Of a stretch of 64,000 nt of DNA, positions 7,198 to 29,495 are shown piece after piece. Under the pieces are notes generated by a model. The model saw only the letters and a list, made by a program, of their open reading frames with translations. It made no database searches and was not told where the DNA came from. Numbering within the stretch: position 1 is the stretch's first letter; every line of letters starts with the position of its first letter. Source of the stretch: a virus; IMG/VR virus record IMGVR_UViG_3300020183_000040, positions 1-64,000 of that record. One strand, given 5' to 3'. A program made the translations under genes and the position numbers.

Positions 7198-7395
7198 ATG
7201 GCTATCTCTCCTATCCCTGATAATGTACCAACTATGATGGAACGTGATTTTGGCACAGTAGTGCTAATCACTGATCCAGTTTCTGACAAATATCTGGCAA
7301 GAATTCAAAAAAATGATCCACCAAAGGATCGTTATTCTCGTCATTGTGGTGGAAAAGGTGGTTTTGACGATTTTGTTGAACGCTGGCACGAATAA
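7198..7395 (+). CDS. Small conserved-looking protein upstream of gp25, 65 aa
   Basis: It starts MAISPIPDNVPTMMERDFGT and ends in GGFDDFVERWHE. It has a beta-strand section (VVLITDPVSDKYLARI) and a single cysteine. Its stop overlaps the gp25 start (TAATG), so it is translated with the wedge genes and is probably a baseplate component or assembly factor. It is too short for T4 gp53. The family is not firmly recognised. Confidence 0.55.
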   Translation: MAISPIPDNVPTMMERDFGTVVLITDPVSDKYLARIQKNDPPKDRYSRHCGGKGGFDDFVERWHE

Positions 7396-9996: not shown

Positions 9997-12900
9997 ATGA
10001 CACAAAAAATACAAGTCAATAAAGTATCTCGTGCCATTCGTGAGCAAGTTCCCGAATTTATCGATCGGGAGGATCCGCAGTTTGTAAAATTTCTTGAACT
10101 CTACTATAAATCTCAAGAAAAAACTGGTCTAAGTTATAATATTCTCAATAATCTTAGCAACTACCTAAACATTGATGAATATGATCTTCGTCTAATAGAC
10201 TCTGGTTCCTACCTCCTAGAAGATGTTGCAGTCGATGACACTACAATTGTAGTTGAGGACGTATATGGATTTGTAGAAGAAAACGGAACAATCAAAATTG
10301 ATGATGAAATTATTTTTTATGAGAAAGCAACCAAATCTCCAAACGTAGCAATTACTGATGGTATTTCATATTCAGCGTTTGTTGATAGATGGGTAGAACT
10401 TCAAAATCCTTATTTCCAATTTGATTCAAATACTGTCCAATTTGCTTTGAAATCAGGAGATCAACCAATCACTCCACCAGGAGCAAATTGGTTGATTGTG
10501 AAGGAATATGATACAATTTTGATTCCTGGTGTTGATTATGAAGTAAGTGCAAACTTTATCAATTTTACGCAAGCACCAAGAACTCGAAACAACTCTGATA
10601 CTGTTGGTAGTACTTCTATTTTTTATCTAAAGGGATTCAATCAAAATCCCATTAGAATATTGGATTCGATTGCATCACAGTTTGATGGTAATAAGAAACT
10701 TTTTGATCTAAAGTTGAGCAACGTTGCTTATACACCAGTTATTACAGAATATACACTTCTTACAATTTCAGATAAACTTCTTATTCCGAATGTTGATTAC
10801 AGCATTTACGGTAGTACTTTGATTCTAAAAACTGCTCCACCACAATACGCAACGTGTAATATTAGATCAATTGAAGCTCCAATTCCTTCATTTGGATCTG
10901 GAGCTACAGCTGTGCCCCAAATTGACAATGGACAACTTGTAAAAATTCTTCCAAAAACATATGGTACTGGATATGTAACTACAAATCCACCAAAAGTTTC
11001 GATTTCTTCAGGTGGCGGTAAAAATGCAACTGCAGTTGCATTGGTAAGTGGCGTTAGTAAAATGCGTCTACTTTCTGCTGGTCGAGGATATTCAACAACA
11101 AACCCACCAATTGTAGAAATAGAAAGTCCTGGAAATGGTGGAACAACTCCTGTAATTACTGCAAATGTTGAAAATGGAACTGTAACTTCTCTACAACTAG
11201 TATCTTCGGGTTCGAATTATAACTTTACTCCTCGGGTTTCATTCAAAGATCCTGGCGGTGCTGAAATAGGAAACCCACTCATTTCCAATGGATCACTTGT
11301 ATCTGGATCTATTTCTGTTATAAACAGCGGAATTGGATATTCTACACCACCTGTAGTTTATATTGATCCTCCAAATCTATCAACTGGTATTCAAGCGGTT
11401 GCAACTACTACTATCGTAGGCGGAAAAGTTACAGCAATTACTATTACAAATCTTGGAACTGGATATACTAGTGTGCCTAGAGTATCAATTATTGATCCAA
11501 CAACTGCTAAAGTTCTTGAAGTGCAGGTTGATCCGCAAGGTCGTGTTATTGAAATTGATCTTTTGAGCGGTGGCACAGGATTTACTGATATCCCATCAAT
11601 CTATATTATTGATGAGAGAAGAGATACTACTGGTCAATACATTGGAGGTGTCGGAGCAAAAGCTATCGCATCAATTTTCAATGGTGCGATTACAGACATT
11701 ACAATCACTAGTTTTGGTGAAGGTTATGATCCTAATAACCCACCAAAAGTTTTTATTCAAAGACCTCCTGTAGCAGAAGCTTCGGTTGAGATTGAATTTG
11801 ATGGAATAACAGACTATAAAATTATTGAACCTGGAAGTGGTTACTCAAAAGCACAATTTGAAGGGTGTGCAAGAGGAGTTGCTGGTCCAATTGGATATGA
11901 CGAAAGAGGAAATATCAAATTTCAACCACTAACTACAATAACTGAACACACTATTGAAAAAAGTAGTAAAGCAGATTGTTTAGATGGTCTTTTCTTGAAA
12001 AAGATGCTGACCAATTTTATTGACCAGTATCTACCAGATCTTCCAAAAATCGAACTAAAAAATATTGATGTAAATCAAGTTCTAAAAAATATTAGAGAAT
12101 TTTATCAAACTAAAGGAACAAGTAATGCAGTTTCTTACCTGTTCAAATTACTCTACCAGGAAGACGTATCAATATTTTATCCAAGAGAGCAGATTATAAA
12201 ACCATCTGCTGCTATTTGGTCTGTAGATACCATTATTCGTACAGTTCTTGTTAGTGGAAATCCAGAAGACCTGATTGAAGGTACTTTGATTCAAGAGGCT
12301 GATGCCGTAGACTTGACAATTGGATATGCTTCGGCACTTATTGAAAATTACCTCACACTTCAAACTTCAGAAACTACAATTTATGAATTGATTCTTGCCG
12401 AGGAAACTATTCTTGGGAAGTTCGCCATCCCATACAAAACACGCCTTGCAGAAAAAATCAATGAAACCGACAGTATCATTACTGTTGATTCTACTATTGG
12501 ATGGCCAGAAAGAAATGGAGAAATTCTTGTAGGAAATGAACTAATTCAATATAAAGAAAAATCTCTAAATCAATTCATTGAATGTACACGTTCAATGAAT
12601 AATGTTAGAGAAACATGGGATGCTGGTACGCTCGTAAAATCCAATTTTACAATTTATGTAAATAAGGGGCAAGATAATGAAGTACAACTTGAAGTATTAG
12701 GAATTGCTGAAGCTGGTTCAACAACCCTTAGCGATACTGGTTCATACTATCTTGCTGGCGATAAACTGTCTGTTGCAAAACTAGGAGCAACTTCAGTAGA
12801 TCCAAAACTAACAACTTGGGTTTATAATGTAAAAAAACTTCTCACAATCACTTCAATTGAAGGATCAGGAAGAATAGCTACAGCTCTTACCGATTCAAAT

Positions 12901-15900
12901 CATGGTCTCCTTGTTGGAGATGCAGTTACAATTTATGGTGCAAACCCTATTGTTTATAACGGAACATTTCGTGTAATTTCTATCAACCCAGATAATAAAA
13001 AAGAGTTTCAGTATCAAACCCTAAGCGATACTGGAAACATTGTTCCTCAGGGTAGTATTCTTGTTTCAATTGATTTGAATAAAGGTAGGTCTAGTAGTGA
13101 TTCGATCTATAATCAAATCAAGTATTACACAGTAAACGTTCAAAATGCATTTTTTGATCAGAATTATGTTTACGTTGCTTCAACTGGACTTCCAAACTAC
13201 AATATTGGTCCTTTTGGTACATCTGCACTAATTCCAGGTAATCAAAGAAAACTCAATAGATTTTTTCTAAACCCACAAACAATTTCATCTAAATCAAAGG
13301 TTACTCCTGGTGCAGTTGGAACATTTGTAAACGGAGTTTCTGTTTGGTCATATATCTCCAAAGAACAAAAAACATTTGGACCAGTTACTTCTATTTCAGT
13401 AACTAAAAACGGTCAAGATTATGATGCTGATAATCCACCTGTAATGACCATTTCAACTAGAACTGGAGAGACTGGTTCTGGTGCTAAGGGAGTTGTCATC
13501 GTTGATGGTAGCATCACTTCAGTTGAAGTAACCGATACAGGGTCAGGATATACTACAGTCCCTCTTGTGTCTATTGTTGGAGGAAATGGTTCTGGCGCTG
13601 CGGCAACGGCAATTATTTCTCAAGGTAAAGTTACTCAGATTCTAGTTACATCTGGAGGAACTGGTTACACTAATAGACCGTCTATTAGTATTTCAGGTGG
13701 GGGAGGATCAGGTGCTACAGCAGAAGCAAAAGTTCGTGGACCGATCAAAAGTGTTACTGTAAGTCAATCTGGATCTTCTTACAGTTCAAGTCCAGTTGTA
13801 TCTGTAAGTTCTGGTCAAGGTGCTCTTGCTCAACCAATTATTAGCAATGGACGTATCATTTCTATCGCAATCATCAATGCTGGAACTGGATATACAACAC
13901 CTCCTAACGTTTTCATTACTGGATCTGGATTTGGTGCTGTTGCAAGAGCAGTTATTGATACTGATGGAGAAAATGCTGGACGTGTAACTAGCATTTCAAT
14001 TGTAAACAGAGGTATTGGATATAGTTTAGGAACAACAAATATCAACCTAGTATCTGTCGGTACTGGGGCTGAGTTCACAGCAGATGTGTTCAAATGGACC
14101 TATAATCTCCAGGAAACTCTAGATACTGATTCTGTAAATGGGTATGTGTTCGATGGTTATAATACACAGTATGGTGGTGAATATGGACATGTATCAAATC
14201 CTCAAAGATTGAGATATGTTCTTGGTGATAGTGTTATTGAAAATGAGCAAACAGGAAATCTTTCTGAATCTGATCCACAAACTGCTGGAATTGAACACTC
14301 TCCTATTATTGGTTGGGCATATGATGGCAACCCCATTTATGGTCCATATGGATATTCAGATCCAACTGATCAGGGATCTGAAATTCAACGTATGATCACT
14401 AGTTATAAATTGAAGGATAATATTGTCTACAATGCACTTTCTAATCCAAATCCATCTAGAATTGATGGACCTCCATTGGATATTTGGGCTGCTGGTCAAT
14501 TTATTGAAGATTATGAGTATGTTTTTGGTCAAGGAGACTTGGATCAATATAATGGACGTTTTTGCAAAACTCCAGATTATCCAAATGGGACATATGCATA
14601 CTTTATAACTATGGAAGGAAATGCGGCAGGTACACCAGTATTTCCATATATTATTGGACCATCATACAACTCCATTGTTGATGAATGGAATCTAAATCGT
14701 AATGCAGTACAACAAAATATTCCTAAGGGGGTAATCAGATACAGAGATCCATTTGAAAGTGTAGATATTGATGTTGAAAGAAAACCAAATGCAGAATCTG
14801 ATACTATCACAACTGAATCTGGAGATCTCATCGTATTTGAAGTAGCAGATGAAAATGGTGATGGCATCATTGATCAATCTGAGCAGAACAATCCACCTAC
14901 TTTAGAAGAAGAATCTATTCTAGAAATATTTGATTATTTTCCAAGGATTCAATTTGATTCAAGAGTTGATATTGAAGTAGAGACAACTACTAAGTTTGAA
15001 GAAGCTAAAGTCACTGGTTTTCTCATTGAAAATCCAGGAGAAAGCTATCAGGTAAATGATAGACTCGTATTTGATAATGAAAATACTGGAGGATCTGGAG
15101 TTGCAGCTGAAGTTTCCTCAATTCAAGGCAAATCCATTGAATCTTACACATTTGAAACTATCAATGATATTCCTTATGGTGTAATTACAACTGATGAACC
15201 ACATGAAATTACTTATGGAGATAAAGTTGATATTCTTTACGAACCACAACTAGCAAATTCTACAAAACAACTAAAAGTTAGAGTTGTAAAAGGTATTGAA
15301 AAAATTACAGTACAAACTCCTGGGACTGGATACAATAAAGATGTTCCTATCGAAATTTCAATTGATGGAGATGGAATTGATGCAGAAATTAGTCCTGTAA
15401 TCAATCCTACTAATGGGACAATTACTGAATTTGAAATTTTGAATTCTGGTAGTGGGTTTACAAAAAATCCAAGAATTCTAATCTCACACCCGCAATCCCT
15501 GAAAAAAGCAGACTATTTTATTGCATCTTTACAAAATCAAAATAATGTAAAAGTTTTAGATATGTATGTAACTAGCAACAAAGTTACATATGTTTGTGGT
15601 GAAACAGTTGACTCAACTGGAAATGTTGTTGGTTTTGCTACAAAGTACTCTGCTCTTGGAGTAAAGCAGTGGAGTAAGACGTTTAGTTCGAAAAATCCTG
15701 TTGGAGGATTTAGGCAACTTAGATTGAAAAAATTAGCTTTCTATAATACAAAACTATATGTTGTTGGAGAAGTACATCCAAATATTACAACCCAAACAAA
15801 TTACAATCCAGATGTATTTTTTGCACGTTTGGATGAATCTGCAGATGGTCTTTCAGCATCTGTTGGTTTTAGCAAAGGTATTGCAGGTATTTCTGGATCT

Positions 15901-18900
15901 ACAAGAGCAGATCAAATCAATACCATCAAACAATATACAGATAATAGATTTTTGATTGGTGGGCATACAAATACTAATACATCATCTCCAAATGATGCAT
16001 TTGTTGCAATAATGACAGATGGCGGAGAATTTGTAACTAAGAGAAAACTTGCATCAACTACTAAATCTGAAAGCATCAAAGATTTCATCGTGCATGATGG
16101 ATTCATTTATGCTCTGGTTGAAATTGCCCCAACTCCAGCTTCAAATGCAACTACATTTGCTATATCTAAACTTGAAGTTGAACCATTTGGTATCGATCTA
16201 ATTTGGACTAAAGAAGTAACTCAAGCAGGAAACTATTTCAAAGATATTGCTTTTTCTTTGAATGAATATGATGAAATTATTGTAACAGCATCTCTTTTTG
16301 ATATTGCAAGTTCTACACAAACTGCTTTTTGGGTTGGTAAGTTTGATCTTGAAGTGCAGAATATTTGGAACTATAGAACTAATGTTACTGGTGCTAGCTC
16401 AATCACTACGGTTGGTCTAGGTATTGATATTTTTGGTGAGGTAAATCTATTGGTCAATAAAACTCTTTCTACAAATGGCGAAAGAGTAGTAGATATTGTA
16501 AAAATTGGATATGATGGTAAGGTAAAATCAGTTTCAAATACTAAAGTTCAAGATGGAGTTGATGGAGTTATCTCTTATGCTGGCGCTGTAGATGTATCTG
16601 GAGATGTACTCTTTGGCGGTCAAACACAGTGGAATAGAAATGAGTTTTCACTCATTTTTGATCAAACACAAACAAATCCAATTATAGATGTTAGCGAATC
16701 TTTTGCTTCTCCACCAACTTTGACTGCAACCAGTGGTACTCTAGGATCTGTTTCTGGAGCAGTCCAAAATAATAGATTGAAGTTCTTTGGTGTTCACAGC
16801 ACATCTACATATGCAGCAACATATTTGAAGTGGACAGATCCAACGTACAATCTTCAAACAGCATTTGGTAGCGGTAATGCATGGACATTGGAGTTCTTTG
16901 CATTCCTTCCATCGGCAAGATCATCAAATCTATCACAAACAGAGCATATTTTGTTTGCAATCACAGATAATGCAACTTCGTTCGGTGGCGTTGCACTAAA
17001 AATTGATCAATCAAATAAATCATTGAAATTGCTTTTGGCTGCAAATAATCAAGCACTAAACGCTGTTACTGCCATTACAACAACTGCAAATACATTTACC
17101 GAAAATCGTTGGCATCATATTGCAGTAACTAGAAGTAATAATGTATTCACTCTTTATGTGAATGGGACATCTGTTGCTTTTGGAACAGTTCCAAATGTTG
17201 TAACATCTGATAGAGATTTGTATTTTGGGAATGCTCCTGGTTTTATTACAACCAACGTATTTTCTGCAACTCAACAATTCTCTGGTGCATTGAATTTTAT
17301 CAAACTTAGAAATAGGACAATTTCCTCCTTTACAGTCCCAACAGATATTGCTAGCAGTACAACAGAAAATTATGTCTTTACTGATACAGATTATATTGCA
17401 AACTATACTCAGAAGTATGACTATATTCCTTATTTTGGTCTAATTGTCAAGAGTGATAAGAATAATGATGCGCTAAGATTGGGGGTTCATCCTAACTTAG
17501 GAACAAACTTTACTGGATTCAAAATCAATAGATCTCTAACAACATATTCTGTCCCATCACAACTAACTCTTGCATTTGGAAATTGGCTAGCAGGTCCAAC
17601 TGGTAATCAAATTCTAGATTTTGCAAATACTAATCTTACTGCGAATGTTGATGTAGATACAGTAACTCTAACTCAGGTGCAAGATATTTACTCATCTAGA
17701 ACAGCAACAGTTCCTGCCCCTGGATCAGTAAAAGTAAAAGTTGAAGCAAAGGTTGTTGGTAAATTCTTTATTCAATCTACAAATACTGTAAAAATTGATA
17801 ATATCCAAAAACTAATTCTAAATCAACCATTTACATTCACTAAAAAAAGTAAATTGGTCTTGAAGAGCACTACGGGTGTTTTCCGTAATAGTGCTTACAT
17901 TGTTGATATCGATAAAGCAACAAATTCAATACTTATTGCAGTTGCTCAAAATACTTGGTCTGATGATATTGGCGTAGGTCTCCTTTCAACAGAGAAGTTT
18001 GATGAATCTACAACGTATGGAATTACTGGTCCAGCACCAAATGATATCAATGTAATCTCCCAGTTTTATTTCCCACAAACTATAAACACTACACCAGGAA
18101 CATTTACTATCGATATGGCAACGGTTCCTTATCTTACAGGAACTCTTGATCAATATGCTAAATTTAGAGCATATAGTGAAACAAATTATTCAGTAAGAAT
18201 TGACGAAGTTGCTGCAAATGCTGCATATCCAAAAGGTTCTGTAGTTGCAATTCCAAATCCAACACAAAATCTAGCATTCAATGGAACTGGAAATACTAAC
18301 ATTACAATTACTGGATTGACTGGTGTTCTTGCAATTACACTAATATGCACCCTTGAGAAAAAACTACTGGTATCTTCTGTTGAAAATACTGATTCTGTAT
18401 ATGTGATTACTTCAAATAGACACTATCTAAAAGAAGGTGGAATGATCTTTGTTGATGGCAACCCAACAAGGACTGTGAATTCAGTAACATACGATGAATA
18501 TGATGGAGCATTCCCTGTAGATACTGTTGTTAGCGGGAAAGAATTTATTTACAAACTTCCAACCACTGCACTCACTTTACCTTCAACAACTCCAGCATCT
18601 GTTTCGATTTTTGCAAAATCTCCAGTCATCAAGATGTATTATGGTCATCAATATGAATTTGATGTCAGTCATACTTCCATGTATGGATATTTCTTATCTT
18701 TCTCAGAGGATAATCTAAACAAACTTGAATACTCATTCAATTCAATTTTACGTATTGGAGTTCCAGGAGTAGTTGCAGTTGGAAGCGTAATACCAAAAGT
18801 TCAATTCAAGGTTACAAAACCAGAGATTACAAATATTTCTTATTATTTTGATCCATCTAGATCTGGTGAAGATTCTCCTGTAGATCCAGGTGCTTACATG

Positions 18901-21900
18901 GATGTTGTTGATAGTCCTTATCTTGGCAGGTTCACAGTTGAATTCCTTGCTGGTGCAACTATCACTACAGGTCCAGATATATTCAAATTTCCACTCACTG
19001 ATGAACCAGAAGGACCTGCTCTCATTAGATTGAATTCTGATGGTGAACAAATTGATCCAAAATATGAAGCACTATCAGAAAAAGTAGTTGGAAAAATTGG
19101 TAGTATTAGACTTGTCAATGGTGGTGGATTCTATAGAAAACTACCAGTTGTAACTGATATTATTTCTAGCAGAAAAATTGAAAGAGTCAATATTATTGAT
19201 CCTGGAACTGAATATCAAGTTGGAGAATATTCTGGAATACCTATTCTTGGCGATGGTGAGGGTGGTCTTGTACGAATTACAGTTACTGATGGCGAAGATG
19301 CAGAGGGTAATCCAATTCCAGGTCAAATTAGTAGTGTAGTCATTACTAGTGCTGGTAAAGGATATAAAACTGCGTATATTGATATTCCATCTATTCCTGG
19401 GATACTTGGATCTGATTTGGCGGGTTCTGGTGCCGAACTAGATGTAGAAATCCCTCCATTTGGTAGTGGAGCATCTATTTTTACAACTGGTGCAAATGTC
19501 GGAAAAATCAAAAAACTAAAGAATAATAACTTTGGTTATGATTATCCACACGATTATACTCTAAGACCAGAAATTACATTCCCGATCAATGTCCAGTTGA
19601 TCAACACTAGTATTCTAAAGAATATTACTGTCACCAATCCTGGATCTGGATATTCTCAAGCTCCTACAGTTATTATCGAAGGTGGCGGCGGAAGTGGGGC
19701 AACTGCTGAAGCATCAATTAGGAATGGTAGAATTTATAGTATTGTGGTGAAGGATCCTGGATCTGGATACTCTTCAGAACCAACTGTCTCACTAAAATCA
19801 TCATTCAATTATGTAGTCAACCTTGACCTGGGACTTCTACAATTTTCATATCCTCATGGCATTCAAAATGGTGCCGCAGTTACACTACAGGTGACAAATG
19901 ATGGAGATACTATTGGCACATTCCCAATTGCTGGTGGATCAATTGGTGCTCTAAATTCAACTACAACATATTATGCAATTGCTGGCGCTGGACAATCCCT
20001 TGAACCTGATCAACTAAAACTTGCGATCACACCATCAAATGCAAATTTGGGTGATGCAATTACATTCGTAAATGCTGGAACAGGGCGCCAAATCTTACTT
20101 ACTAGTTCATTCGGTGGAGCTGCAAAAGCAATTGTTGGAACTGGAGAATTTCTTGCTGGAGAATATGTATATCAAGGTGATAGTGTTAGTAACCCAACTG
20201 CATTTGGTTATGTATCGAGTAATGGTGGATGGGAGATTGGTCCTAGACTCCTAAAAATTATAGATTATGAAGGAAAATTTGAAGAAGGTGCAAAGATAAC
20301 TGGAACTATTTCAAAATCTTCTGGCATTATCGCATCGCTGTCAATTGCTAGAGGGGTTCTGCAAATTGACTCTTTGACTAAGACTACAGGTCAATTTGTT
20401 GATGATCGTGGGAAACTTTCTGAAATTATTCAAAGAGTCCAAGATTCTTATTATTATCAGACATTTTCATATGCTGTCCAATCTCCAGTATCAATAACCT
20501 CTTGGAAAAACTTTGTCCTGAAGAATACACACCCAGCTGGATTCAAACTATTTGGTGAATTGAATATATTTGAGAATGCTAAAATTGCAAATAGAAAGAC
20601 TGATTTTGAACTTACTAAATCGGTGAATCTTGCAGACTCTGCAATTGTTCCTAATATTCAAAATTTTGCTCTAGTAGAACCAATTTACACTCAGTATGAT
20701 AATACGCAAGTTCTATTCAGACAAAAGAGACTAACGTCTTCTGAGAATATTTTGACTTCTGTTGTTCAACGTATTGATGATATCTCGAATCTATTTGATG
20801 GAGAAAGAATTGCTTTCCCAATTTCTGTTGCTCAAGAACCAGTCTCAGCATCAGTCAATCAATTGATGATTGTTCTAAACGGAGTCGTACAAAACCCAGG
20901 AACTTCATTTGGTATTCAAGGAAATCAAATCGTATTTTCAGAACCTCCGCAAGCACCAGCAAGCGTTAGATATGGAAATGTAGATATTGCATTCCAAACT
21001 GTGATACGTCTATCTTTTAGTTCAATATCTGGCATTTTCCCAACACTGGGAATGACTATAATTGCATTGACTAGTAGATGGAGAGGCACAGTAATTGGAA
21101 CTTCTGGTAATACTATCGATGTTTTCTGGAATGGAGCACCGAATAGTGATCTATCAACTCTTGGTGGTCTACAAGAATCTGAAGCGTCTCAATTTGGGTA
21201 TATTATTGGAGAAACGTTCAACGTCGGAGCTACAGGATTTATTGGAATATTGGATAGTGCTGTCGTTATAAAGAACAGCACAAATGCTAATGACTTCTTA
21301 TATGAATTCTCTGAAACTATTACTACGCTTGAGGGAGAACTAGCACAAGTAGAACAGATCAACCTGTCAGTTGGTCAAGAAATTCCTATTGCTAGACTAA
21401 GATATACTACTGGCGTATCAACAACTGCTATTGAGGTAATTGCATATAATACTTCTACCCCAACTAGAGTTCCTGACAATGTATTTGTAATTGGCAAATA
21501 TTATCAATTTGATGCTGAGGTTTTCAAAGTAACTGCAATAGTACATGCTACAGAATATTCAACTATAACTGTACAAAGAGCTCAACTAGGAACTGCTGCG
21601 GCACAACACCAAGCAAATGCTTCCATATATGGAACAGAAATCAATGTAACGGATAAACTAACTCTATCCAAAACAGTTGGAACATATCAATCAAAACCAG
21701 GTCTATTTGATATTCAACTATATGATATTATTGTTGGAGTTCAGTCTGGTTCTGTTGGATTTGTAACAAGGTCATATGCATACACAGACCCAACTACCAA
21801 CTTACCAATCAATGAGGTAGTTATTTCAGAAGGATCCTCATTCTTTGGACTTCTATTCAACAGAATTACTTCCACAGAATATGCGAATGTTATTCTTGAT

Positions 21901-24900
21901 AATATTGCAGATTCTCAAATTCAAGTAAATGATTTTGAAACTGCACTAGTATCAATCGATTCTACTTTCCCAGTAGGAGAATTTGTAAACAATCATGTTG
22001 TTGTCTACAATACTGCAACTGGAACAATCCAGAACAATGAGTATATTAGAAATTATAAATTTGACTATGGTAATGATACTGGTGTGTTTACTGTTGGAGA
22101 AACCGCTGAAATTCGTCAGCTTGCAATAAGAAATAGAGAAGGTGGGTATTTTACTGATGGTCAAATCATCAGAAGTGAAAATTCTAAAGCAGAAGTTCTT
22201 GGATTTGCTCCAGGTAGAAATATTGTCTATCTCGGTAAACAGGCAAGAAGTTCTTCAGCAGGAAAGGATTTCCATATCCCAACATTTTTTGGGAATGCCA
22301 AACTATCTACAGCACAGAAAAAATTCGGAGAATCATCTCTACTTCTAGATGGAAATGGAGATTATCTACAAATATCGCACCCAACAGAATTTGATCTAAC
22401 AACTTATACATTTGAAGCGTGGATTTATTTACCAACCACTCCAACTACTGAGTATTCGATGATATTTGCCAATGTCGGACAAAACTCGTATTGGGGACTC
22501 CGTACTGTTGCTGGAGTTACACGTCTGACTTCATATGATGGCAGTACCATCAATGAACAAACAACTGGAACTGGTATTCCATTGAATACTTGGACTCATG
22601 TTGCTTGGTCTAGGTCTGGTAGTACTATTAGAGCGTTTATGAATGGAGTAATCGTACACACTGGAACTAGCAACGCCACTCCAAATGTGACTGGAATTAC
22701 AATTGGTTATTCAGATAGTTATGCAAATCAATATTTCTTCAATGGATATATCGATGAAGTAAGAGTATCTAATACAAACATTTATGGACTTGCATTTACT
22801 CCTCCTTCTAATATTTTCCAAGGAGATAATAATACAAAACTACTACTTCATTTTGATGGTGCTAATAATGCAACAACCACTGATGATTGGTCTGGTGCAG
22901 CTAACTGGGCAAATGGGCAAGAATTTGTAAATAGTGGAATTCTATTCCGTTTTTATGATGCAGCAAATCAAATAGAAGATAATATAAATTTGATTGCTGC
23001 CGAAGCAGTATATCGTACAGATGTACATTTCCCCAAACTTCATATTCCAACAACAGTTGCTATCACTTATGGTAGTCAGTTCTATGATGTAATTCTTGCA
23101 AATCTAAACTTCATTGCTTGGGAAGCATATCAAAGAGTTTCTCCAACTCCTCCAACTGGAACAACAGCACAGGATTGTGTTGATGATGTAAAAGATGTTC
23201 TTCGTAGTTTAGCTTATAACATCAAACATGGATTCAATTCCAAAGTTTGGGATGCAGCAAAATTGTATGTAAACTCTGGTGCTATTCAACATCTAACTGG
23301 TCAAGTTACAAACTCTGTCAATGTATTCAATCAAGCGAGAAATATTGCAAAACAAATCATCAATAACACTACAGTAACCAAGCAAGGTTCTCATACTTAT
23401 ACACAAACAACAAATACTTCAATTCCATATGTTATTGGTGGATATACTACTGTTGAGAGCTCTATTGATTCTCTATTCAAGATTGTTACCGATACACTTC
23501 AAAATCCAGCTGGTACAAATAACACTACATATCCATCTTCTGTTGCTGTTCTTCCGAGAACACACCCACCACATACTCAGTGTATTGCTGATGTCACCCT
23601 CACTATCACTGAAATTCTAAAAGATATTAGAAATGGTGGTAATGAATATACCTGGGACGCAGCTTCTCTCTATGTCAACACTGGGGGATCCACAGCAACA
23701 CTCAATCATATTGTTGGTGAAGAAGCAGAGACTTCATATGCATATGACAGAGCAAGAGATATTTCTCTACTTGTAATGCGTGGACTTGAGGTTGGTATTA
23801 CTGGAGATCATGGTTTTACACAATTCATTGATACAACCATTACGGATGATCCTGCAAATCCAGTTTGTGCTGATGTTGCCAGTACAATCAATACTTTATT
23901 CGATATTGTAATTGATACAATTGATCTTGCATATACTTCTTCTGGAAATCATCTACTAACAGTACCTAGAACACAGGCAGCGTATGAATATGCATCTGGA
24001 ATAGTAGATGCATATAGATCCGACAGTTTTACAATTCGTTCTGTAAATAACACAACTAAAGACTTTTGGACTAATGAAATTAGTCCAGATACTCAGAGTC
24101 GTTACATAGATGCTGCAGATCTCATTGAAATCAATACTGAGGCTATTATTGATGAAACTTCGGGGAGGATGCTCGCTAGATATCCCGTACTCCTCACTGA
24201 GATGCCCCGTAACCAGGATGGAAGCGGTGCAGGTACAAATAGATGTAAAACTGATTTGACAATCCTTCTAGGCGCTCTAGTGAAGGACCTTAGATTTGGA
24301 GGTAATCGTTTTACTACTGAGGCAACAAAAAATTACTTAGGTGTAAATGATGAAATTAGGCATATTCGTTTACAACTTTGGGGATCTTTGTATGCACATG
24401 ATCAACTTGGTGAAATGTCAAAACTTGCAATCACTGGAGATCTAGCAGCTGTTGCACAATACACAGACTCTGTAATTGTATCTGATATTGGCATCACTCA
24501 GGATGCTGGCGGATGTGCTAATGTCAAGACAACGATTGACAATCTGATTCAAAATATGAATGACATTCTTGCTCCTACACCAGATAGGAATAAGGATGCT
24601 GCAGATCTACTCGTTTTCAATAGGAATTACATCGCAGAAGAAGCAATTGGTCTGCTTGAAGATGAATTCTTCTATACTCTAAGTAATGGACAAACATATC
24701 AGGCATATCAATATCCTGGTGGTAATGTTGATGGAAGAAACAAGTGTATTAGAGATGCAAAAAATATCATAGATGCAGTTGCTGCTGACCTACTAACAGG
24801 TGGAAATAATAGCATTCTTCTTGCTGTAGAAAAATATTTGACTGCTCAACTTGAAATTGATTACATTGAAGATCAACTTGGTGCAACTCTATATTCGTGG

Positions 24901-27900
24901 ACTAGAATTGCCTTCCTATGCAAGAAAGCAGTTGCTAACTTACTTCAGTCTGCTAATCAAATTGCACTGTCTACAAGTCATTATGTTGCTCAACATACGG
25001 ATAAAGCTGCATATACAGATCCAACGATTACTCATGATATTTCTTCTCCTGGTGGAAATTACAGTTCTGCAGACTGTGTAAATATTCAAGCTGCAATTGA
25101 TAACCTAATAAATGCAGCTATTGACACTCTTGCCCCTGGTGGAGATATTGCTATAAATGCATCAAGAATGATGCTTTTCAATAAAAACTATTTTGATAAG
25201 GAAATTGGTGAAGAAGTTACTAGACAATGGGGACAAATCACAACTGCTCAAAAAACATTTATTGAAGAAGTTGCTGATAATATCATTCATGATATTCTAA
25301 TCACTAAAGAAAGTGTACTTGATAATCAGACTACAGCGCAATATTCAAATGTTCAGACTTACAGAACCCTTAGAAGTTTACTCACACCTCTAAACACGAC
25401 TAATAATCAATTGAATTTGATCCCTGCAGCTCAGGTCGAACAAATTTCTGGAGGAACATGGACAAGCACTGGAAATACTGTATCTCTAAATGCATCTTCT
25501 GGTCCAGATGGAACTCTTACCGCAGATAAATTGATTCCTGGTACAACTGGCACAGATGAACGTGCTGTAAGAAGAAACTTTGTTTTGACTGCGTATACAA
25601 CCTATGATAGAGACAATGTAACGTTTGATAATGAATATGTCACTCTTGATCAGGGTGTTGACACTTCATATCAAACATATACTTGGTCTATATTCTTCAA
25701 AGAAGCTGGTTACTCTAATGCAAGAATTAGAGTTCAATGGGATGCAACTCACTTTGCATTTTTCAATATAAATCTAACAAATGGAGCACCAAGTGATGTA
25801 TTTGGAACTGGAATAACAGGACTGTCTACAGGAGTTATTCCACATGGAAATGGATGGTACAGGGCATTTATTACCTTTGATGTTCCATTTGGTGTTTCAT
25901 CAGTAGATCTATTTGCATATGGAACGGTGAATGCTTCAGTTACTGCTCCTGGTAATGGAACTAGCGGTGTTCTAATTTGGGGTGCTAAATTTGCTAAGAG
26001 TGGAATTGATATTTACACATCACAAGGAGGAACTCCTTTCTACCCAGATAATGATTATAATGTGAGAAATTATATTCTGGATAGACTTGAATTCTTTATG
26101 ACTAGAGCGATTTCGGGAACACTAATAACTCCATCTCCTCTAGCTACGTTCCCATCTTATACAAATACATCTATTCAATCTGGATATACAATTGCGGATA
26201 TCAATAAATTTATTGAGATACTAATCAATCAATACCAAGAACAACTCACAAACCCATCTTATTATCTTGTTATTGGTATTCAAAATGGACTAGTACTTCT
26301 ACCAAAAACTTATGGGACCAGAATAATCCCAGTTCCTTTGGGCGGAAAAATTGAACAATCTTCGTTTATCTATGGTGTTCTGTCTGATAGAAGTGCAGAA
26401 ATTGCAGGATATATTTTGAATGAAGCACAAGTTGCAAAAACTTATGTGAGGATGAGAATAAACGATATTGAGGATGGTCCATTTGTTGTCAACGACGACG
26501 TGGTTGCCGCTGGGAATCCAGGTATAACAGGAAAAATTTATGGATTCTACTCTGATGAAAACTTCAATTATCTTGATGTAGAAGTAACTGCTGGAACATT
26601 CAATATCAACTCTCGTATTGAAAGTGATGAGGGTGCTGAAGCTACAATTGTTGCTATTGAACCTCGCCTTCACGTCATTGGACTTCAAGGTGATTTTGCT
26701 GATGGAGTTCCATTCAAAGCATATACAAGTAACGTTACTGCAAATGTTGTAGATTTTATTAGATGTGAAGGAGCAGTTTTGAGTAATACTGGTGGAAAAC
26801 TAACTGTAGATACAGATTCTTTGACTGGTTCTTTTGAAACCAAGAGCGTTGTATTCCCACAAACATCAAGAATTTACCTAGATCTTATTCAATATAAAGG
26901 TCTTGTATTGAATGTCGGTGATATCATTGTTGCTGATGGTTATGTAAGATTCCAAGTTGCAGTAAACAATAATTTGTCAACTTTCCAAAGAGGTGGAACC
27001 TTATACGGAATTGTCAATGGCACTAAGGACACAAGTAGGAGAGCCATTATAGTAGATCTTGATCTCAACAATAATTACATATATGCTAAAACATATCTTG
27101 GACAATTTGCTAATGGTCAATCATTTGCTTATTACGGAGAGGTTGAGGGAGATCTTCCAGTTGGTTTTGCAACTATTGTAACCAATGTACCTGTTGCTGG
27201 TAATGCATCTGGTAGGATAGTAGATATCAAGCAAGTAGGAACTAAAACAAGAGTGTTCTTGTCTGATGTAAGAGGAACCTGGACTATTAGAGAGACCGTG
27301 GCTGGTAGGGCAGGATATGGTGCTGCAGTTTTTGATACTAAGACTATCAAAGGAAGAATCAAGCGTGCATTCCGTGGATTTGATGGCGTGCAAACGGAGT
27401 TCAACCTCACAACTGCCAATGGAACTCCATACTTCCCAGATCCAGATGGGCATATGTTGATCTTTATCAACGGTATTCTACAACCTCCAGGTGCAGGCAA
27501 CGCTTATAGTGCATTCTCAAATGTACTTTCGTTTAGTGAACCACCTGAAGTTGGAGATGCATTTGTTGGATTCTATCTAGGAAAACTACGCCAATTGGAT
27601 GACATTTCCTTTGAATTTGATTCTCTACGTCAATCATTCAACCTGAGACGTTCTGGAATCTTCTATTCTCTAACTCTTACCGATGGTGTACAATCTTCCG
27701 TGATTAGACCAGAAAATAATATCATTGTTTCTCTAAATGGTGTTATTCAAGAACCTGGCATTGGATTTACTCTTGTTGGTTCTCGTATTATCTTTGGTGA
27801 AATTCCTAGAGTAGGATCTACATTCGTTGCATTCTCTTATGTTGGTTCTGAAGGTGACGTTGACTCGGAAACTGTTGTTCCACCAATTGAACCTGGTGAT

Positions 27901-28518
27901 CTTCTAGATATTGAAGGTGAAACTATAGATCGTGAAGTTGCAGTTATTGAATCTTCTAATTCTTTGATTACAATTGATTATCTTGGATCTGTGTTTGGTA
28001 AAGGCGCTAGTGCAACGGGAGTAATCACTAAAGGAAGAATCAAAGAATCCAGAGTTACATCTGGAGGATCTGGTTATACGTCTAGACCACTTGTTAGAAT
28101 TGACTCTGTTACTGGTTTTGATGCCAATATCAAAGCACTAGTTGGAGTAGAAAGAATTGAAATGATAACCTATGGAAGTGGATATAAATCTCCAGTGGTT
28201 CTTGTAGAATCGACAGTTCCCGATGATTGGACTTCACCAAATATTGCTCTATATGGAGCTGATGGAGTTGCAACAATTCAAGTAATACCTACTACACCTA
28301 CAGAACCACCTCCAAGTGCAGGCGTTCCTGACAACACTATAAGTACTAGTGGTGGATTTACTGCTGGTGGTGGCGTGGTTGGACAAACTACAGGTGGAAC
28401 TGATACAGAGGGTGGCATATTTGATGGAGAGTTGGACTTCATATGGACTCGTCCAGCAAACTCATATACAACACCTAATTTCAATGTTGCAAATATATTT
28501 GCCAGCAGCACCAGCTAA
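9997..28518 (+). CDS. Giant 6173-aa modular baseplate/tail protein (gp7 position)
   Basis: A single 18.5-kb frame. Approximate domains: 10-50, an N-terminal segment (VPEFIDREDPQFVKFLELYY) seen in cyanophage proteins following gp6; 220-290, the first FDG-type module; 300-625, GSGY repeats; 660-735, helical (FIDQYLPDLPKIELKNIDVN); 1130-1360, GSGY repeats; 1380-1565, a YHYH domain (GWAYDGNPIYGPYGY); 1835-2230, beta-propeller-like repeats; 2280-2440, the first LamG/concanavalin-like domain (RWHHIAVTRSNNVFTLYVNG); 3035-3265, GSGY repeats; 3590-3670, FDG-type; 4090-4290, the second LamG-like domain; 4310-5135, helical Cys-containing repeats; 5145-5350, carbohydrate-binding-like beta domain; 5790-5960, two FDG-type modules; then GSGY and a Gly-rich end. 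Position after gp25-gp6 suggests a greatly enlarged gp7-like wedge or peripheral baseplate protein; that is inference. The ATG at 9997 is preferred to an upstream TTG at 9973 inside gp6. Confidence 0.75.
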   Translation: MTQKIQVNKVSRAIREQVPEFIDREDPQFVKFLELYYKSQEKTGLSYNILNNLSNYLNIDEYDLRLIDSGSYLLEDVAVDDTTIVVEDVYGFVEENGTIKIDDEIIFYEKATKSPNVAITDGISYSAFVDRWVELQNPYFQFDSNTVQFALKSGDQPITPPGANWLIVKEYDTILIPGVDYEVSANFINFTQAPRTRNNSDTVGSTSIFYLKGFNQNPIRILDSIASQFDGNKKLFDLKLSNVAYTPVITEYTLLTISDKLLIPNVDYSIYGSTLILKTAPPQYATCNIRSIEAPIPSFGSGATAVPQIDNGQLVKILPKTYGTGYVTTNPPKVSISSGGGKNATAVALVSGVSKMRLLSAGRGYSTTNPPIVEIESPGNGGTTPVITANVENGTVTSLQLVSSGSNYNFTPRVSFKDPGGAEIGNPLISNGSLVSGSISVINSGIGYSTPPVVYIDPPNLSTGIQAVATTTIVGGKVTAITITNLGTGYTSVPRVSIIDPTTAKVLEVQVDPQGRVIEIDLLSGGTGFTDIPSIYIIDERRDTTGQYIGGVGAKAIASIFNGAITDITITSFGEGYDPNNPPKVFIQRPPVAEASVEIEFDGITDYKIIEPGSGYSKAQFEGCARGVAGPIGYDERGNIKFQPLTTITEHTIEKSSKADCLDGLFLKKMLTNFIDQYLPDLPKIELKNIDVNQVLKNIREFYQTKGTSNAVSYLFKLLYQEDVSIFYPREQIIKPSAAIWSVDTIIRTVLVSGNPEDLIEGTLIQEADAVDLTIGYASALIENYLTLQTSETTIYELILAEETILGKFAIPYKTRLAEKINETDSIITVDSTIGWPERNGEILVGNELIQYKEKSLNQFIECTRSMNNVRETWDAGTLVKSNFTIYVNKGQDNEVQLEVLGIAEAGSTTLSDTGSYYLAGDKLSVAKLGATSVDPKLTTWVYNVKKLLTITSIEGSGRIATALTDSNHGLLVGDAVTIYGANPIVYNGTFRVISINPDNKKEFQYQTLSDTGNIVPQGSILVSIDLNKGRSSSDSIYNQIKYYTVNVQNAFFDQNYVYVASTGLPNYNIGPFGTSALIPGNQRKLNRFFLNPQTISSKSKVTPGAVGTFVNGVSVWSYISKEQKTFGPVTSISVTKNGQDYDADNPPVMTISTRTGETGSGAKGVVIVDGSITSVEVTDTGSGYTTVPLVSIVGGNGSGAAATAIISQGKVTQILVTSGGTGYTNRPSISISGGGGSGATAEAKVRGPIKSVTVSQSGSSYSSSPVVSVSSGQGALAQPIISNGRIISIAIINAGTGYTTPPNVFITGSGFGAVARAVIDTDGENAGRVTSISIVNRGIGYSLGTTNINLVSVGTGAEFTADVFKWTYNLQETLDTDSVNGYVFDGYNTQYGGEYGHVSNPQRLRYVLGDSVIENEQTGNLSESDPQTAGIEHSPIIGWAYDGNPIYGPYGYSDPTDQGSEIQRMITSYKLKDNIVYNALSNPNPSRIDGPPLDIWAAGQFIEDYEYVFGQGDLDQYNGRFCKTPDYPNGTYAYFITMEGNAAGTPVFPYIIGPSYNSIVDEWNLNRNAVQQNIPKGVIRYRDPFESVDIDVERKPNAESDTITTESGDLIVFEVADENGDGIIDQSEQNNPPTLEEESILEIFDYFPRIQFDSRVDIEVETTTKFEEAKVTGFLIENPGESYQVNDRLVFDNENTGGSGVAAEVSSIQGKSIESYTFETINDIPYGVITTDEPHEITYGDKVDILYEPQLANSTKQLKVRVVKGIEKITVQTPGTGYNKDVPIEISIDGDGIDAEISPVINPTNGTITEFEILNSGSGFTKNPRILISHPQSLKKADYFIASLQNQNNVKVLDMYVTSNKVTYVCGETVDSTGNVVGFATKYSALGVKQWSKTFSSKNPVGGFRQLRLKKLAFYNTKLYVVGEVHPNITTQTNYNPDVFFARLDESADGLSASVGFSKGIAGISGSTRADQINTIKQYTDNRFLIGGHTNTNTSSPNDAFVAIMTDGGEFVTKRKLASTTKSESIKDFIVHDGFIYALVEIAPTPASNATTFAISKLEVEPFGIDLIWTKEVTQAGNYFKDIAFSLNEYDEIIVTASLFDIASSTQTAFWVGKFDLEVQNIWNYRTNVTGASSITTVGLGIDIFGEVNLLVNKTLSTNGERVVDIVKIGYDGKVKSVSNTKVQDGVDGVISYAGAVDVSGDVLFGGQTQWNRNEFSLIFDQTQTNPIIDVSESFASPPTLTATSGTLGSVSGAVQNNRLKFFGVHSTSTYAATYLKWTDPTYNLQTAFGSGNAWTLEFFAFLPSARSSNLSQTEHILFAITDNATSFGGVALKIDQSNKSLKLLLAANNQALNAVTAITTTANTFTENRWHHIAVTRSNNVFTLYVNGTSVAFGTVPNVVTSDRDLYFGNAPGFITTNVFSATQQFSGALNFIKLRNRTISSFTVPTDIASSTTENYVFTDTDYIANYTQKYDYIPYFGLIVKSDKNNDALRLGVHPNLGTNFTGFKINRSLTTYSVPSQLTLAFGNWLAGPTGNQILDFANTNLTANVDVDTVTLTQVQDIYSSRTATVPAPGSVKVKVEAKVVGKFFIQSTNTVKIDNIQKLILNQPFTFTKKSKLVLKSTTGVFRNSAYIVDIDKATNSILIAVAQNTWSDDIGVGLLSTEKFDESTTYGITGPAPNDINVISQFYFPQTINTTPGTFTIDMATVPYLTGTLDQYAKFRAYSETNYSVRIDEVAANAAYPKGSVVAIPNPTQNLAFNGTGNTNITITGLTGVLAITLICTLEKKLLVSSVENTDSVYVITSNRHYLKEGGMIFVDGNPTRTVNSVTYDEYDGAFPVDTVVSGKEFIYKLPTTALTLPSTTPASVSIFAKSPVIKMYYGHQYEFDVSHTSMYGYFLSFSEDNLNKLEYSFNSILRIGVPGVVAVGSVIPKVQFKVTKPEITNISYYFDPSRSGEDSPVDPGAYMDVVDSPYLGRFTVEFLAGATITTGPDIFKFPLTDEPEGPALIRLNSDGEQIDPKYEALSEKVVGKIGSIRLVNGGGFYRKLPVVTDIISSRKIERVNIIDPGTEYQVGEYSGIPILGDGEGGLVRITVTDGEDAEGNPIPGQISSVVITSAGKGYKTAYIDIPSIPGILGSDLAGSGAELDVEIPPFGSGASIFTTGANVGKIKKLKNNNFGYDYPHDYTLRPEITFPINVQLINTSILKNITVTNPGSGYSQAPTVIIEGGGGSGATAEASIRNGRIYSIVVKDPGSGYSSEPTVSLKSSFNYVVNLDLGLLQFSYPHGIQNGAAVTLQVTNDGDTIGTFPIAGGSIGALNSTTTYYAIAGAGQSLEPDQLKLAITPSNANLGDAITFVNAGTGRQILLTSSFGGAAKAIVGTGEFLAGEYVYQGDSVSNPTAFGYVSSNGGWEIGPRLLKIIDYEGKFEEGAKITGTISKSSGIIASLSIARGVLQIDSLTKTTGQFVDDRGKLSEIIQRVQDSYYYQTFSYAVQSPVSITSWKNFVLKNTHPAGFKLFGELNIFENAKIANRKTDFELTKSVNLADSAIVPNIQNFALVEPIYTQYDNTQVLFRQKRLTSSENILTSVVQRIDDISNLFDGERIAFPISVAQEPVSASVNQLMIVLNGVVQNPGTSFGIQGNQIVFSEPPQAPASVRYGNVDIAFQTVIRLSFSSISGIFPTLGMTIIALTSRWRGTVIGTSGNTIDVFWNGAPNSDLSTLGGLQESEASQFGYIIGETFNVGATGFIGILDSAVVIKNSTNANDFLYEFSETITTLEGELAQVEQINLSVGQEIPIARLRYTTGVSTTAIEVIAYNTSTPTRVPDNVFVIGKYYQFDAEVFKVTAIVHATEYSTITVQRAQLGTAAAQHQANASIYGTEINVTDKLTLSKTVGTYQSKPGLFDIQLYDIIVGVQSGSVGFVTRSYAYTDPTTNLPINEVVISEGSSFFGLLFNRITSTEYANVILDNIADSQIQVNDFETALVSIDSTFPVGEFVNNHVVVYNTATGTIQNNEYIRNYKFDYGNDTGVFTVGETAEIRQLAIRNREGGYFTDGQIIRSENSKAEVLGFAPGRNIVYLGKQARSSSAGKDFHIPTFFGNAKLSTAQKKFGESSLLLDGNGDYLQISHPTEFDLTTYTFEAWIYLPTTPTTEYSMIFANVGQNSYWGLRTVAGVTRLTSYDGSTINEQTTGTGIPLNTWTHVAWSRSGSTIRAFMNGVIVHTGTSNATPNVTGITIGYSDSYANQYFFNGYIDEVRVSNTNIYGLAFTPPSNIFQGDNNTKLLLHFDGANNATTTDDWSGAANWANGQEFVNSGILFRFYDAANQIEDNINLIAAEAVYRTDVHFPKLHIPTTVAITYGSQFYDVILANLNFIAWEAYQRVSPTPPTGTTAQDCVDDVKDVLRSLAYNIKHGFNSKVWDAAKLYVNSGAIQHLTGQVTNSVNVFNQARNIAKQIINNTTVTKQGSHTYTQTTNTSIPYVIGGYTTVESSIDSLFKIVTDTLQNPAGTNNTTYPSSVAVLPRTHPPHTQCIADVTLTITEILKDIRNGGNEYTWDAASLYVNTGGSTATLNHIVGEEAETSYAYDRARDISLLVMRGLEVGITGDHGFTQFIDTTITDDPANPVCADVASTINTLFDIVIDTIDLAYTSSGNHLLTVPRTQAAYEYASGIVDAYRSDSFTIRSVNNTTKDFWTNEISPDTQSRYIDAADLIEINTEAIIDETSGRMLARYPVLLTEMPRNQDGSGAGTNRCKTDLTILLGALVKDLRFGGNRFTTEATKNYLGVNDEIRHIRLQLWGSLYAHDQLGEMSKLAITGDLAAVAQYTDSVIVSDIGITQDAGGCANVKTTIDNLIQNMNDILAPTPDRNKDAADLLVFNRNYIAEEAIGLLEDEFFYTLSNGQTYQAYQYPGGNVDGRNKCIRDAKNIIDAVAADLLTGGNNSILLAVEKYLTAQLEIDYIEDQLGATLYSWTRIAFLCKKAVANLLQSANQIALSTSHYVAQHTDKAAYTDPTITHDISSPGGNYSSADCVNIQAAIDNLINAAIDTLAPGGDIAINASRMMLFNKNYFDKEIGEEVTRQWGQITTAQKTFIEEVADNIIHDILITKESVLDNQTTAQYSNVQTYRTLRSLLTPLNTTNNQLNLIPAAQVEQISGGTWTSTGNTVSLNASSGPDGTLTADKLIPGTTGTDERAVRRNFVLTAYTTYDRDNVTFDNEYVTLDQGVDTSYQTYTWSIFFKEAGYSNARIRVQWDATHFAFFNINLTNGAPSDVFGTGITGLSTGVIPHGNGWYRAFITFDVPFGVSSVDLFAYGTVNASVTAPGNGTSGVLIWGAKFAKSGIDIYTSQGGTPFYPDNDYNVRNYILDRLEFFMTRAISGTLITPSPLATFPSYTNTSIQSGYTIADINKFIEILINQYQEQLTNPSYYLVIGIQNGLVLLPKTYGTRIIPVPLGGKIEQSSFIYGVLSDRSAEIAGYILNEAQVAKTYVRMRINDIEDGPFVVNDDVVAAGNPGITGKIYGFYSDENFNYLDVEVTAGTFNINSRIESDEGAEATIVAIEPRLHVIGLQGDFADGVPFKAYTSNVTANVVDFIRCEGAVLSNTGGKLTVDTDSLTGSFETKSVVFPQTSRIYLDLIQYKGLVLNVGDIIVADGYVRFQVAVNNNLSTFQRGGTLYGIVNGTKDTSRRAIIVDLDLNNNYIYAKTYLGQFANGQSFAYYGEVEGDLPVGFATIVTNVPVAGNASGRIVDIKQVGTKTRVFLSDVRGTWTIRETVAGRAGYGAAVFDTKTIKGRIKRAFRGFDGVQTEFNLTTANGTPYFPDPDGHMLIFINGILQPPGAGNAYSAFSNVLSFSEPPEVGDAFVGFYLGKLRQLDDISFEFDSLRQSFNLRRSGIFYSLTLTDGVQSSVIRPENNIIVSLNGVIQEPGIGFTLVGSRIIFGEIPRVGSTFVAFSYVGSEGDVDSETVVPPIEPGDLLDIEGETIDREVAVIESSNSLITIDYLGSVFGKGASATGVITKGRIKESRVTSGGSGYTSRPLVRIDSVTGFDANIKALVGVERIEMITYGSGYKSPVVLVESTVPDDWTSPNIALYGADGVATIQVIPTTPTEPPPSAGVPDNTISTSGGFTAGGGVVGQTTGGTDTEGGIFDGELDFIWTRPANSYTTPNFNVANIFASSTS
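22930..25400 (+). repeat. Four-copy helical repeat array inside the giant protein
   Basis: A diverged tandem array with three kinds of helical segment. Type A (DC..D....l..l..Dl..GGN...wdAa..Y) starts near nt 23170, 23580, 24240 and 24735. Type B (C..v...Id.L......dtl) lies near 23450 (without Cys), 23870, 24510 and 25070. Type C (A..l...N...I..Ea) lies near 22980, 23080, 24115, 24600 and 25160. A and B alternate regularly. Copy lengths are unequal, about 137, 220 and 165 residues, so it is an old duplication. Confidence 0.7.
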
Positions 28519-28541: not shown

Positions 28542-29495
28542 ATGGCAATATCAACTACTACTGCACAAATATCACAGGGTGATCTGGTAATCAATACAAA
28601 TGGTTTACCAGATCCAGCTTTATCTGGAAATCCTCTTGGATCTAGAAGATTTCCAGGAAATCCACCAATTGTAATTGAAGGATATGACCTAGAGTACAGA
28701 TTTACATATCGTGCAGGGCAATCTCAAGATCTTCCAAGCCCACAAGCACTAACGTTAGAGGTTCTTGGTATTGCACTAAATGGAGTAGCTATAGCTGGTC
28801 CTGCATCTCCTCCTGGACCATTACCAGGAACTACAACTAATCCTCCAACTGGATTCACATATAATAGAGTTTTCAACGAAGATCGATTTGGAGTAGATAT
28901 TTGTGGTGGTTATTGCTGCCATTTGACTCTGGAAGATGATGATACTGAATTTGAACAATATCGATATCATTCTGGATCATTTTTAGTGAACTGTTGGGGA
29001 TCTAAAGTTATTGCATCAAATACATATTTCCAATCATCAAATTACCAAGGAGATTATTTTCGCCATCCAGATGGGCATTCAAAAATTGTAGGATATTGTT
29101 TTGATGGATATCCGATATATGGACCATTTGGTTATAGAACTCCTAGTGATCCTCGAAGTGAACCTATCAAAATGCGAAGCTCTTATAGACCATTCCCATC
29201 ACCTAGGATAGGAAGAGAATCTAATTATAGTCAAATTCCTCCAGGCACGTACATTCAAGATTTTGAATATGTAGAAAATCTTGGAACTCTAGATCAATAT
29301 AATGGGAGATATACAAAAACTCCAGACTATCCAACTGGTACATATGCTTACTTCTTAGCATTAGATAAACAAAACAGACCAGTTTATCCATATATTTTTG
29401 GTAAGGAAACTCGCAAAACCAGAGATTGTAGTTGTGTTGGTACAGATGATCATGACCATGAGCATGATGATCATGACCATGAGCATGATGACTAA
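28542..29495 (+). CDS. YHYH-domain virion protein with His/Asp tail, 317 aa
   Basis: This is a structural protein next to the baseplate genes. Residues about 130-290 form a YHYH domain: EQYRYHSG, then GHSKIVGYCFDGYPIYGPFGY and LDQYNGRYTKTPDYPTGTYAYF. Related copies lie in the giant protein and in the 1178-aa protein. The N-terminal 110 residues are Pro/Gly-rich beta sequence. A Cys pair (CSC) precedes a C-terminal DHDHEHD repeat that could bind metal. The YHYH family has no established function that I know of. The gene is separated from the giant gene by 23 bases and is followed by a late promoter. Confidence 0.75.
   Translation: MAISTTTAQISQGDLVINTNGLPDPALSGNPLGSRRFPGNPPIVIEGYDLEYRFTYRAGQSQDLPSPQALTLEVLGIALNGVAIAGPASPPGPLPGTTTNPPTGFTYNRVFNEDRFGVDICGGYCCHLTLEDDDTEFEQYRYHSGSFLVNCWGSKVIASNTYFQSSNYQGDYFRHPDGHSKIVGYCFDGYPIYGPFGYRTPSDPRSEPIKMRSSYRPFPSPRIGRESNYSQIPPGTYIQDFEYVENLGTLDQYNGRYTKTPDYPTGTYAYFLALDKQNRPVYPYIFGKETRKTRDCSCVGTDDHDHEHDDHDHEHDD
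29445..29492 (+). repeat. 21-base tandem repeat encoding DDHDHEH
   Basis: Two exact 21-base units (29445-29465 and 29466-29486), starting gatgatcatgaccatgag, plus a partial third. Each unit encodes Asp-Asp-His-Asp-His-Glu-His. The exact DNA identity suggests a recent duplication. Confidence 0.9.

Follow-up and report, generated by a model that had tools for sequence, protein, structure and literature searches.

The 6,173-residue protein encoded directly after gene 6 in this virus is, very probably, the gp7 baseplate wedge subunit itself, carrying inserted and appended modules. With good though lesser confidence, we read it as the gp7 of a T4-like marine cyanophage that has been enlarged by insertion and bears peripheral, probably glycan-binding arms. 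The window, the whole 64,000-nucleotide stretch analyzed here, comes from a virus record of 85,186 bp, and this one gene takes 29% of the window. The frame runs on the (+) strand from an ATG at 9997 to a stop at 28518 without an internal stop codon (calculated mass 668,115 Da, or 668 kDa; pI 4.7). Over 9997-28518, each of the five other frames contains between 274 and 643 stops, which excludes chance as the source of the open frame. An alternative TTG start at 9973 would add eight residues but would overlap gp6, and the position of the ATG at 9997 matches the starts of relatives (MNINKVS...).

A first-pass annotation of the letters alone had described a single uninterrupted frame, for which an artefact of sequencing or assembly fusing several genes would be the trivial explanation. 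We found no point in favor of an artefact, which is vanishingly improbable and indeed already refuted. An independent IMG/VR contig (L001) shows 99.957% identity in a gap-free alignment of 20,921 bp, and its frame stays open to the contig end (residues 1-4697, 76% of the giant) without an indel. The S-ShM2 protein SShM2_093 (6198 aa), annotated just as a structural protein, occupies the same gene place and is collinear with the giant over its full length (61% identity over 6,241 columns), diverging in its last 70 residues and in the LamG regions; further relatives of 3,000 to 7,300 residues occur in many genomes. Together with the stop counts, these observations establish the frame as described.

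The placement in the baseplate operon right after gp6 also holds, with gp25 and gp6 lying directly 5′. The gene order of the window (gp25, gp6, the giant, a YHYH protein, gp9, a PHROG 708 wedge protein, gp8, VrlC, neck, terminase, sheath, and portal) is that of marine T4-like cyanophages, and the giant takes the place expected of the gp7 family, directly after gene 6. The features of the giant and its neighbors, all on the (+) strand, are as follows.

7395-7844 (+): gp25 (PHROG 261)
7844-9982 (+): gp6, the expected partner of gp7 (PHROG 219, E 4e-191)
9997-28518 (+): the giant, assigned here to gp7, 6173 aa (open frame; PHROG 701 over most of its length)
10003-10179 (+): core block A, residues 3-61 (short-gp7 HMM i-E 3.6e-11; counterpart of the T4 gp7 helical domain 643-689 of Pfam)
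10180-11991 (+): insertion 1, residues 62-665, FDG-type repeats and GSGY array I (AF2; GSGY HMM)
11992-12714 (+): core block B, residues 666-906 (short-gp7 HMM i-E 2.8e-28; a helix motif corresponding to T4 733-758 and a β domain corresponding to T4 domain V)
12829-13080 (+): small β barrel, residues 945-1028 (VIA match to 4hiz, the phi92/K1F endosialidase barrel)
13459-14058 (+): GSGY array II, residues 1155-1354 (GSGY HMM)
14083-14622 (+): YHYH domain, residues 1363-1542 (Pfam PF14240, E 2.7e-31)
15232-15486 (+): GSGY units III, residues 1746-1830 (GSGY HMM)
16873-17187 (+): LamG-like domain 1, residues 2293-2397 (Pfam Laminin_G_3, E 1.1e-10)
19588-19797 (+): GSGY units IV, residues 3198-3267, ahead of block C (GSGY HMM)
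20359-20577 (+): core block C, residues 3455-3527 (block C HMM; counterpart of T4 gp7 ~860-920)
22348-22776 (+): LamG-like domain 2, residues 4118-4260 (Pfam E 2e-19; lectin-like matches in the PDB)
23176-24996 (+): four helical repeats, residues 4394-5000 (common to cyanophage tail-fibre proteins)
25474-26028 (+): module resembling the RcGTA head-spike fibre Rcc01080, residues ~5160-5344 (PDB profile E 4.2e-12 and 9.6e-6)
27334-27876 (+): FDG-type repeats, residues 5780-5960 (most conserved part of the extension)
27982-28209 (+): GSGY units V, residues 5996-6071 (GSGY HMM)
28542-29495 (+): YHYH protein, 317 aa (site of the S-ShM2 gene named 'gp7'; no gp7 core)
29524-30744 (+): gp9, the tail-fibre connector (PHROG 677)

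Three core blocks carry the assignment to gp7. Pairwise and profile comparison finds an unchanging A-B-C order of the blocks in every relative scored and in T4 gp7, where their counterparts are residues ~643-700, ~720-861, and ~860-920, respectively; in the short protein of BUCT-ZZ01 all three lie inside 382 residues. An HMM built from 33 short relatives matched gp7 alone among nine T4 proteins (E 1.6e-12). Against 18 proteins of the window, it found all three blocks only in the giant, the other proteins matching just its GSGY-like part. In the opposite direction, an HMM built from T4-type gp7 alone detected, in the whole protein set, just the giant (E 1e-6), with block B preceding block C. 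A dedicated HMM of block C scored E 2e-23 in the giant and 2e-4 in T4 gp7, and hhalign related the short gp7s to T4-type gp7 with a probability of 99.6%. A single-sequence search of the PDB with residues 601-933 returned T4-type gp7 at E 0.06. The profile version of the search was significant: with a profile of 54 sequences covering residues 1-1060, T4-type gp7 was the sole match among all PDB sequences (E 4e-4), over ~28 residues.

These comparisons cover the parts of T4 gp7 in turn. The N-terminal helical block (T4 643-689) is recognized through the short-gp7 HMM and its hhalign comparison with T4, while the Pfam Gp7_helical model gave no score in the giant. The helix motif (T4 733-758) is found by the T4-only HMM, by PHROG 964, and by the PDB profile search; the fold of β domain V (T4 766-861) appears in structural comparisons of both the giant (VIA) and a short relative (AF2), and the C block (T4 ~860-920) is detected in the giant by its own HMM. 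Domains I-III and VI of T4 gp7 have no Pfam match in the giant, and none in the proteins of ZZ01 or phiM12 either, so these domains are T4-specific rather than defining for the wider family. The NCBIfam model TIGR02242 matched shorter relatives, in each case only below its cut-off.

Predicted structures agree with the sequence comparisons. The AF2 model of residues 1-1060 has a mean pLDDT of 80, blocks A and B being modeled with moderate confidence (pLDDT ~40-85). A Foldseek comparison of this whole model with T4 gp7 was weak and its output was dominated by loose long alignments; therefore, single domains were compared using VIA. Residues 742-906 superpose on T4-type gp7 residues ~766-844 with a Z score of 9.1 and 2.1 Å rmsd over 79 aligned residues. 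The model of a 592-residue short relative has a mean pLDDT of 57 and a core β domain above 90; its only PDB matches below E 1e-3, which are also the three best by Z, are T4-type gp7 structures. The first-pass annotation had treated T4 gp7 as the expected neighbor of a separate composite adhesin. That view does not survive, as blocks A, B, and C put gp7 in the giant itself.

Published annotation points elsewhere. According to an earlier study, cyano- and pelagimyophages lack gp7 and have VrlC in its stead (PMC7029224), and GenBank gives the name gp7 to SShM2_094, at the site of the small YHYH protein. On these grounds the giant might be taken for a separate adhesin or skirt, with VrlC or the YHYH neighbor playing the gp7 role. 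We consider this very improbable: VrlC (35863-43134; 2,423 aa, DUF4815) gave no match to the short-gp7 HMM and an hhalign probability of 0.9%, and by its sequence is no gp7 substitute; SShM2_094 likewise gave no match to the gp7 HMM, while the giant matches all blocks. Moreover, in P-RSM4 the giant and gp9 adjoin with no gene between them. The statement that gp7 is missing is thus contradicted, at least for this group, and the gp7 label of SShM2_094 looks wrong, because neither it nor the YHYH protein of the window has a gp7 core.

The identification of the giant as gp7 is matched by its relatives, in which the gp7 gene follows gp6 in every case examined, with products of 498 to 7,312 residues. 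At the small end are X1 (498 aa), Moby (503 aa), pf16 (523 aa), BUCT-ZZ01 (607 aa), and phage OC (631 aa), followed by Melnitz-2 (896 aa), phiM12 (1,007 aa), and T4 (1,032 aa). Larger products are found in S-PM2 (3,048 aa), S-RSM4 (3,515 aa), ACG-2014f (4,225 aa), MED4-213 (4,458 aa), and P-SSM2 (5,195 aa), and the largest in S-SM1 (6,180 aa), S-ShM2 (6,198 aa), S-RIM50 (6,405 aa), P-RSM4 (6,603 aa), and P-SSM4 (7,312 aa); the S-SZBM1 relative has 6,619 residues. T4 gp7 shares with the giant the place after gp6 and, in the same order, the helical domain, the helix motif, domain V, and the 860-920 segment; it has its own N-terminal 640 residues and domain VI and lacks the insertions. The short gp7s of Synechococcus phage BUCT-ZZ01, Stenotrophomonas phage Moby, Xanthomonas phage X1, and Methylophilales phage Melnitz-2 occupy the same place and have the blocks in order where scored, but with short linkers between them and few or no added modules. 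The proteins of P-SSM4, P-SSM2, and S-RIM50, also in this place, are all already named gp7. Those of P-SSM2 and S-RIM50 have the gp7 core in common with the giant, while the insertions of all three differ from those of the giant, P-SSM2 lacking most of insertion 1.

A tblastn search with residues 640-850 retrieved 480 phage records, mostly cyanophages, some of them naming the product 'gp7' or 'baseplate wedge initiator'; a scan of viral contigs using X1 gp7 as the query yielded a single partial relative. PHROG 701, a 6,136-position profile of cyanophage structural proteins, matches residues 6-4518 and 5113-6092 in order, in pieces. The giant is therefore a further member of the giant gp7/PHROG 701 family, real and ordinary for its virus group, and related viruses already have recorded proteins of this type and length. 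Its size, which had been presented as exceptional, is routine in cyanomyoviruses, as the 7,312-residue gp7 of P-SSM4 illustrates.

Three stretches have been added to the core: ~600 residues between A and B (FDG and GSGY repeats), ~2,550 between B and C (the small β barrel, GSGY arrays, YHYH, and LamG 1), and ~2,650 after C (LamG 2, the four helical repeats, the RcGTA head-spike-like module, FDG repeats, and two GSGY units). Insertion 1 is well folded in the AF2 model (pLDDT ~90) and is a true insertion, since the natural giants L165-L169 and L177 lack ~500 of its residues. The small barrel superposes on 4hiz with a VIA Z score of 10.7 and 2.1 Å rmsd (81 aligned residues, 26% identity), a likeness in which it ties with unrelated eukaryotic barrels, Uba1 among them. 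Most of the modules named from the letters alone were recovered, namely YHYH, the two LamG-like domains (E 1e-10 and 2e-19), GSGY units (19 with the GSGY HMM), the helical repeats, and the FDG repeats, and the general picture of a huge composite baseplate-operon protein with lectin-like modules stands; Pfam and PDB profile searches find in it the lectin-like and spike-like modules that are a feature of receptor-binding proteins. The part described as CBM-like exists as a module, but its nearest sequence match is Rcc01080, the RcGTA head-spike fibre; Rcc01080 is a capsid spike protein in its own right, has been shown to bind the capsule, and has only this module in common with the giant. A β-propeller had also been suggested; none was seen in residues 1840-3050 by profile search of PDB sequences, a type of search that does not exclude one.

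Related modules occur elsewhere in the window. GSGY units are present in other virion proteins (3377-6451, 30754-34290, 34326-35858, and 50971-52140), the carriers besides the giant being the neck protein gp14, gp8, the PHROG 708 protein, and the 3377-6451 protein, and YHYH domains are found in two further baseplate-operon proteins. A 2,164-residue structural protein (43675-50169) that begins with an Mtd_N (major tropism determinant) domain may be another tail fibre. A 440-residue protein (53652-54971), encoded between the genes for the small and large terminase subunits, combines a Pfam S-AdoMet lyase domain (E 3.8e-7) with DUF6321 at its C terminus; judging from its domains, it is possibly an anti-restriction enzyme in the packaging operon.

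Relatives of the giant have been found in virions. Mass spectrometry of purified S-SM1 virions detected T4-GC969 (PMC3037559), which corresponds to SSM1_102 (6,180 aa). In purified S-SZBM1 virions, S-SZBM1_208 was detected by 71 peptides (13.5% coverage; PMC9146016). We established the homology of S-SZBM1_208 (6619 aa, 724 kDa) to the giant by sequence comparison: the two are collinear and ~41% identical, with modules in the C-terminal half diverged and partly rearranged. A coverage of 13.5% does not demonstrate an intact chain, and long stretches of sequence separate the core blocks, so that the giant could be imagined as a precursor from which several mature virion proteins are cut. We think this improbable, given that no cleavage site is known, that a single fold has to bring the three blocks together, and that virion studies enter the relative as a single 724 kDa protein.

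We next consider the role of the giant as a wedge subunit with arms. In T4, gp7 is a monomer present in six copies per virion, one per wedge; it is needed for wedge assembly, joins gp10, gp8, gp9, and gp6, and has one domain that swings outward at the baseplate switch (PMC3004832). By analogy, blocks A, B, and C of the giant would fold with gp6 into the wedge. Judging from the common core, it would keep the gp6-contacting part and have a much bigger collection of modules in place of the outer part of T4 gp7. With one chain in each wedge and six in the virion, as presumed from T4, the total would come to ~4 MDa. The A-B and B-C insertions and the tail after C would leave the core as arms, presumably at the baseplate rim, in which GSGY and FDG arrays would act as spacers for lectin- and fibre-type modules (the two LamG domains, the head-spike-like module, and the helical repeats). 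These modules would most likely touch cell-surface glycans and couple such contact to the wedge that starts sheath contraction.

We lean, by a modest margin, toward arms that bind the host. Within the systems they come from, the RcGTA head fibre and the endosialidase barrel each attach to capsule glycans (PMC7296036, PMC10218006, PMC12632334), which by analogy suggests the same in the giant. During coevolution with Synechococcus WH7803, S-PM2d081 (3,048 aa), which we identify here as the gp7 of S-PM2d, gained mutations together with mutations in many other structural genes (PMC9910659). Mutated in the same experiment was S-PM2d088 (L204 13950-23966; 3,338 aa), which has the helical repeats of the giant and no gp7 core. 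In the experimental evolution of S-TIM4 (PMC6224464), the main text does not name ORF101, the giant of that phage.

The added modules could instead be architectural, bracing or covering the baseplate and tail tip or spacing the fibres without binding the host, with the protein still being gp7. GSGY units of the same kind occur in the neck and wedge proteins of the phage, as does YHYH in the two baseplate-operon proteins mentioned above, and no part of the extension is better conserved than the C-terminal FDG part (5780-5960; mean identity of 76% to four relatives); conservation this strong suggests a structural, not a host-facing, role for some of the extension. As an account of all the added modules we nevertheless find the architectural reading unlikely, since receptor-binding proteins commonly contain modules of the LamG, head-spike-like, and tail-fibre types, and these are also the modules that diverge most. 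Among five giants, the mean conservation of adhesin-like (lectin- and fibre-type) modules lies 24 percentage points below that of core and scaffold modules, a gap reached by only 2.6% of circular shifts, and LamG 2 is the least conserved module.

Tentatively, and at somewhat less than even confidence, we propose that marine cyanomyoviruses have built part of their receptor-binding apparatus into the wedge subunit that links the rim to gp6. On this proposal, gp7 would be an acceptor that takes up lectin, spike, and fibre modules at two fixed positions within the chain and at one terminus, placing host contact and the contraction switch on one chain. Marine cyanomyoviruses lack recognizable T4 gp10, gp11, and gp12 (PMC2984593), an absence that receptor binding built into gp7, if true, would help explain. 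The giant cyanophage proteins that fall into several gene clusters, most of them called only 'structural protein', can now be assigned to gp7, and the series from ~500 to 7,300 residues describes a baseplate protein that has grown by insertion at fixed places. The useful yield is a gp7 assignment with controls, an anatomy of the insertions, and a set of named modules for tests of host binding in abundant ocean viruses.
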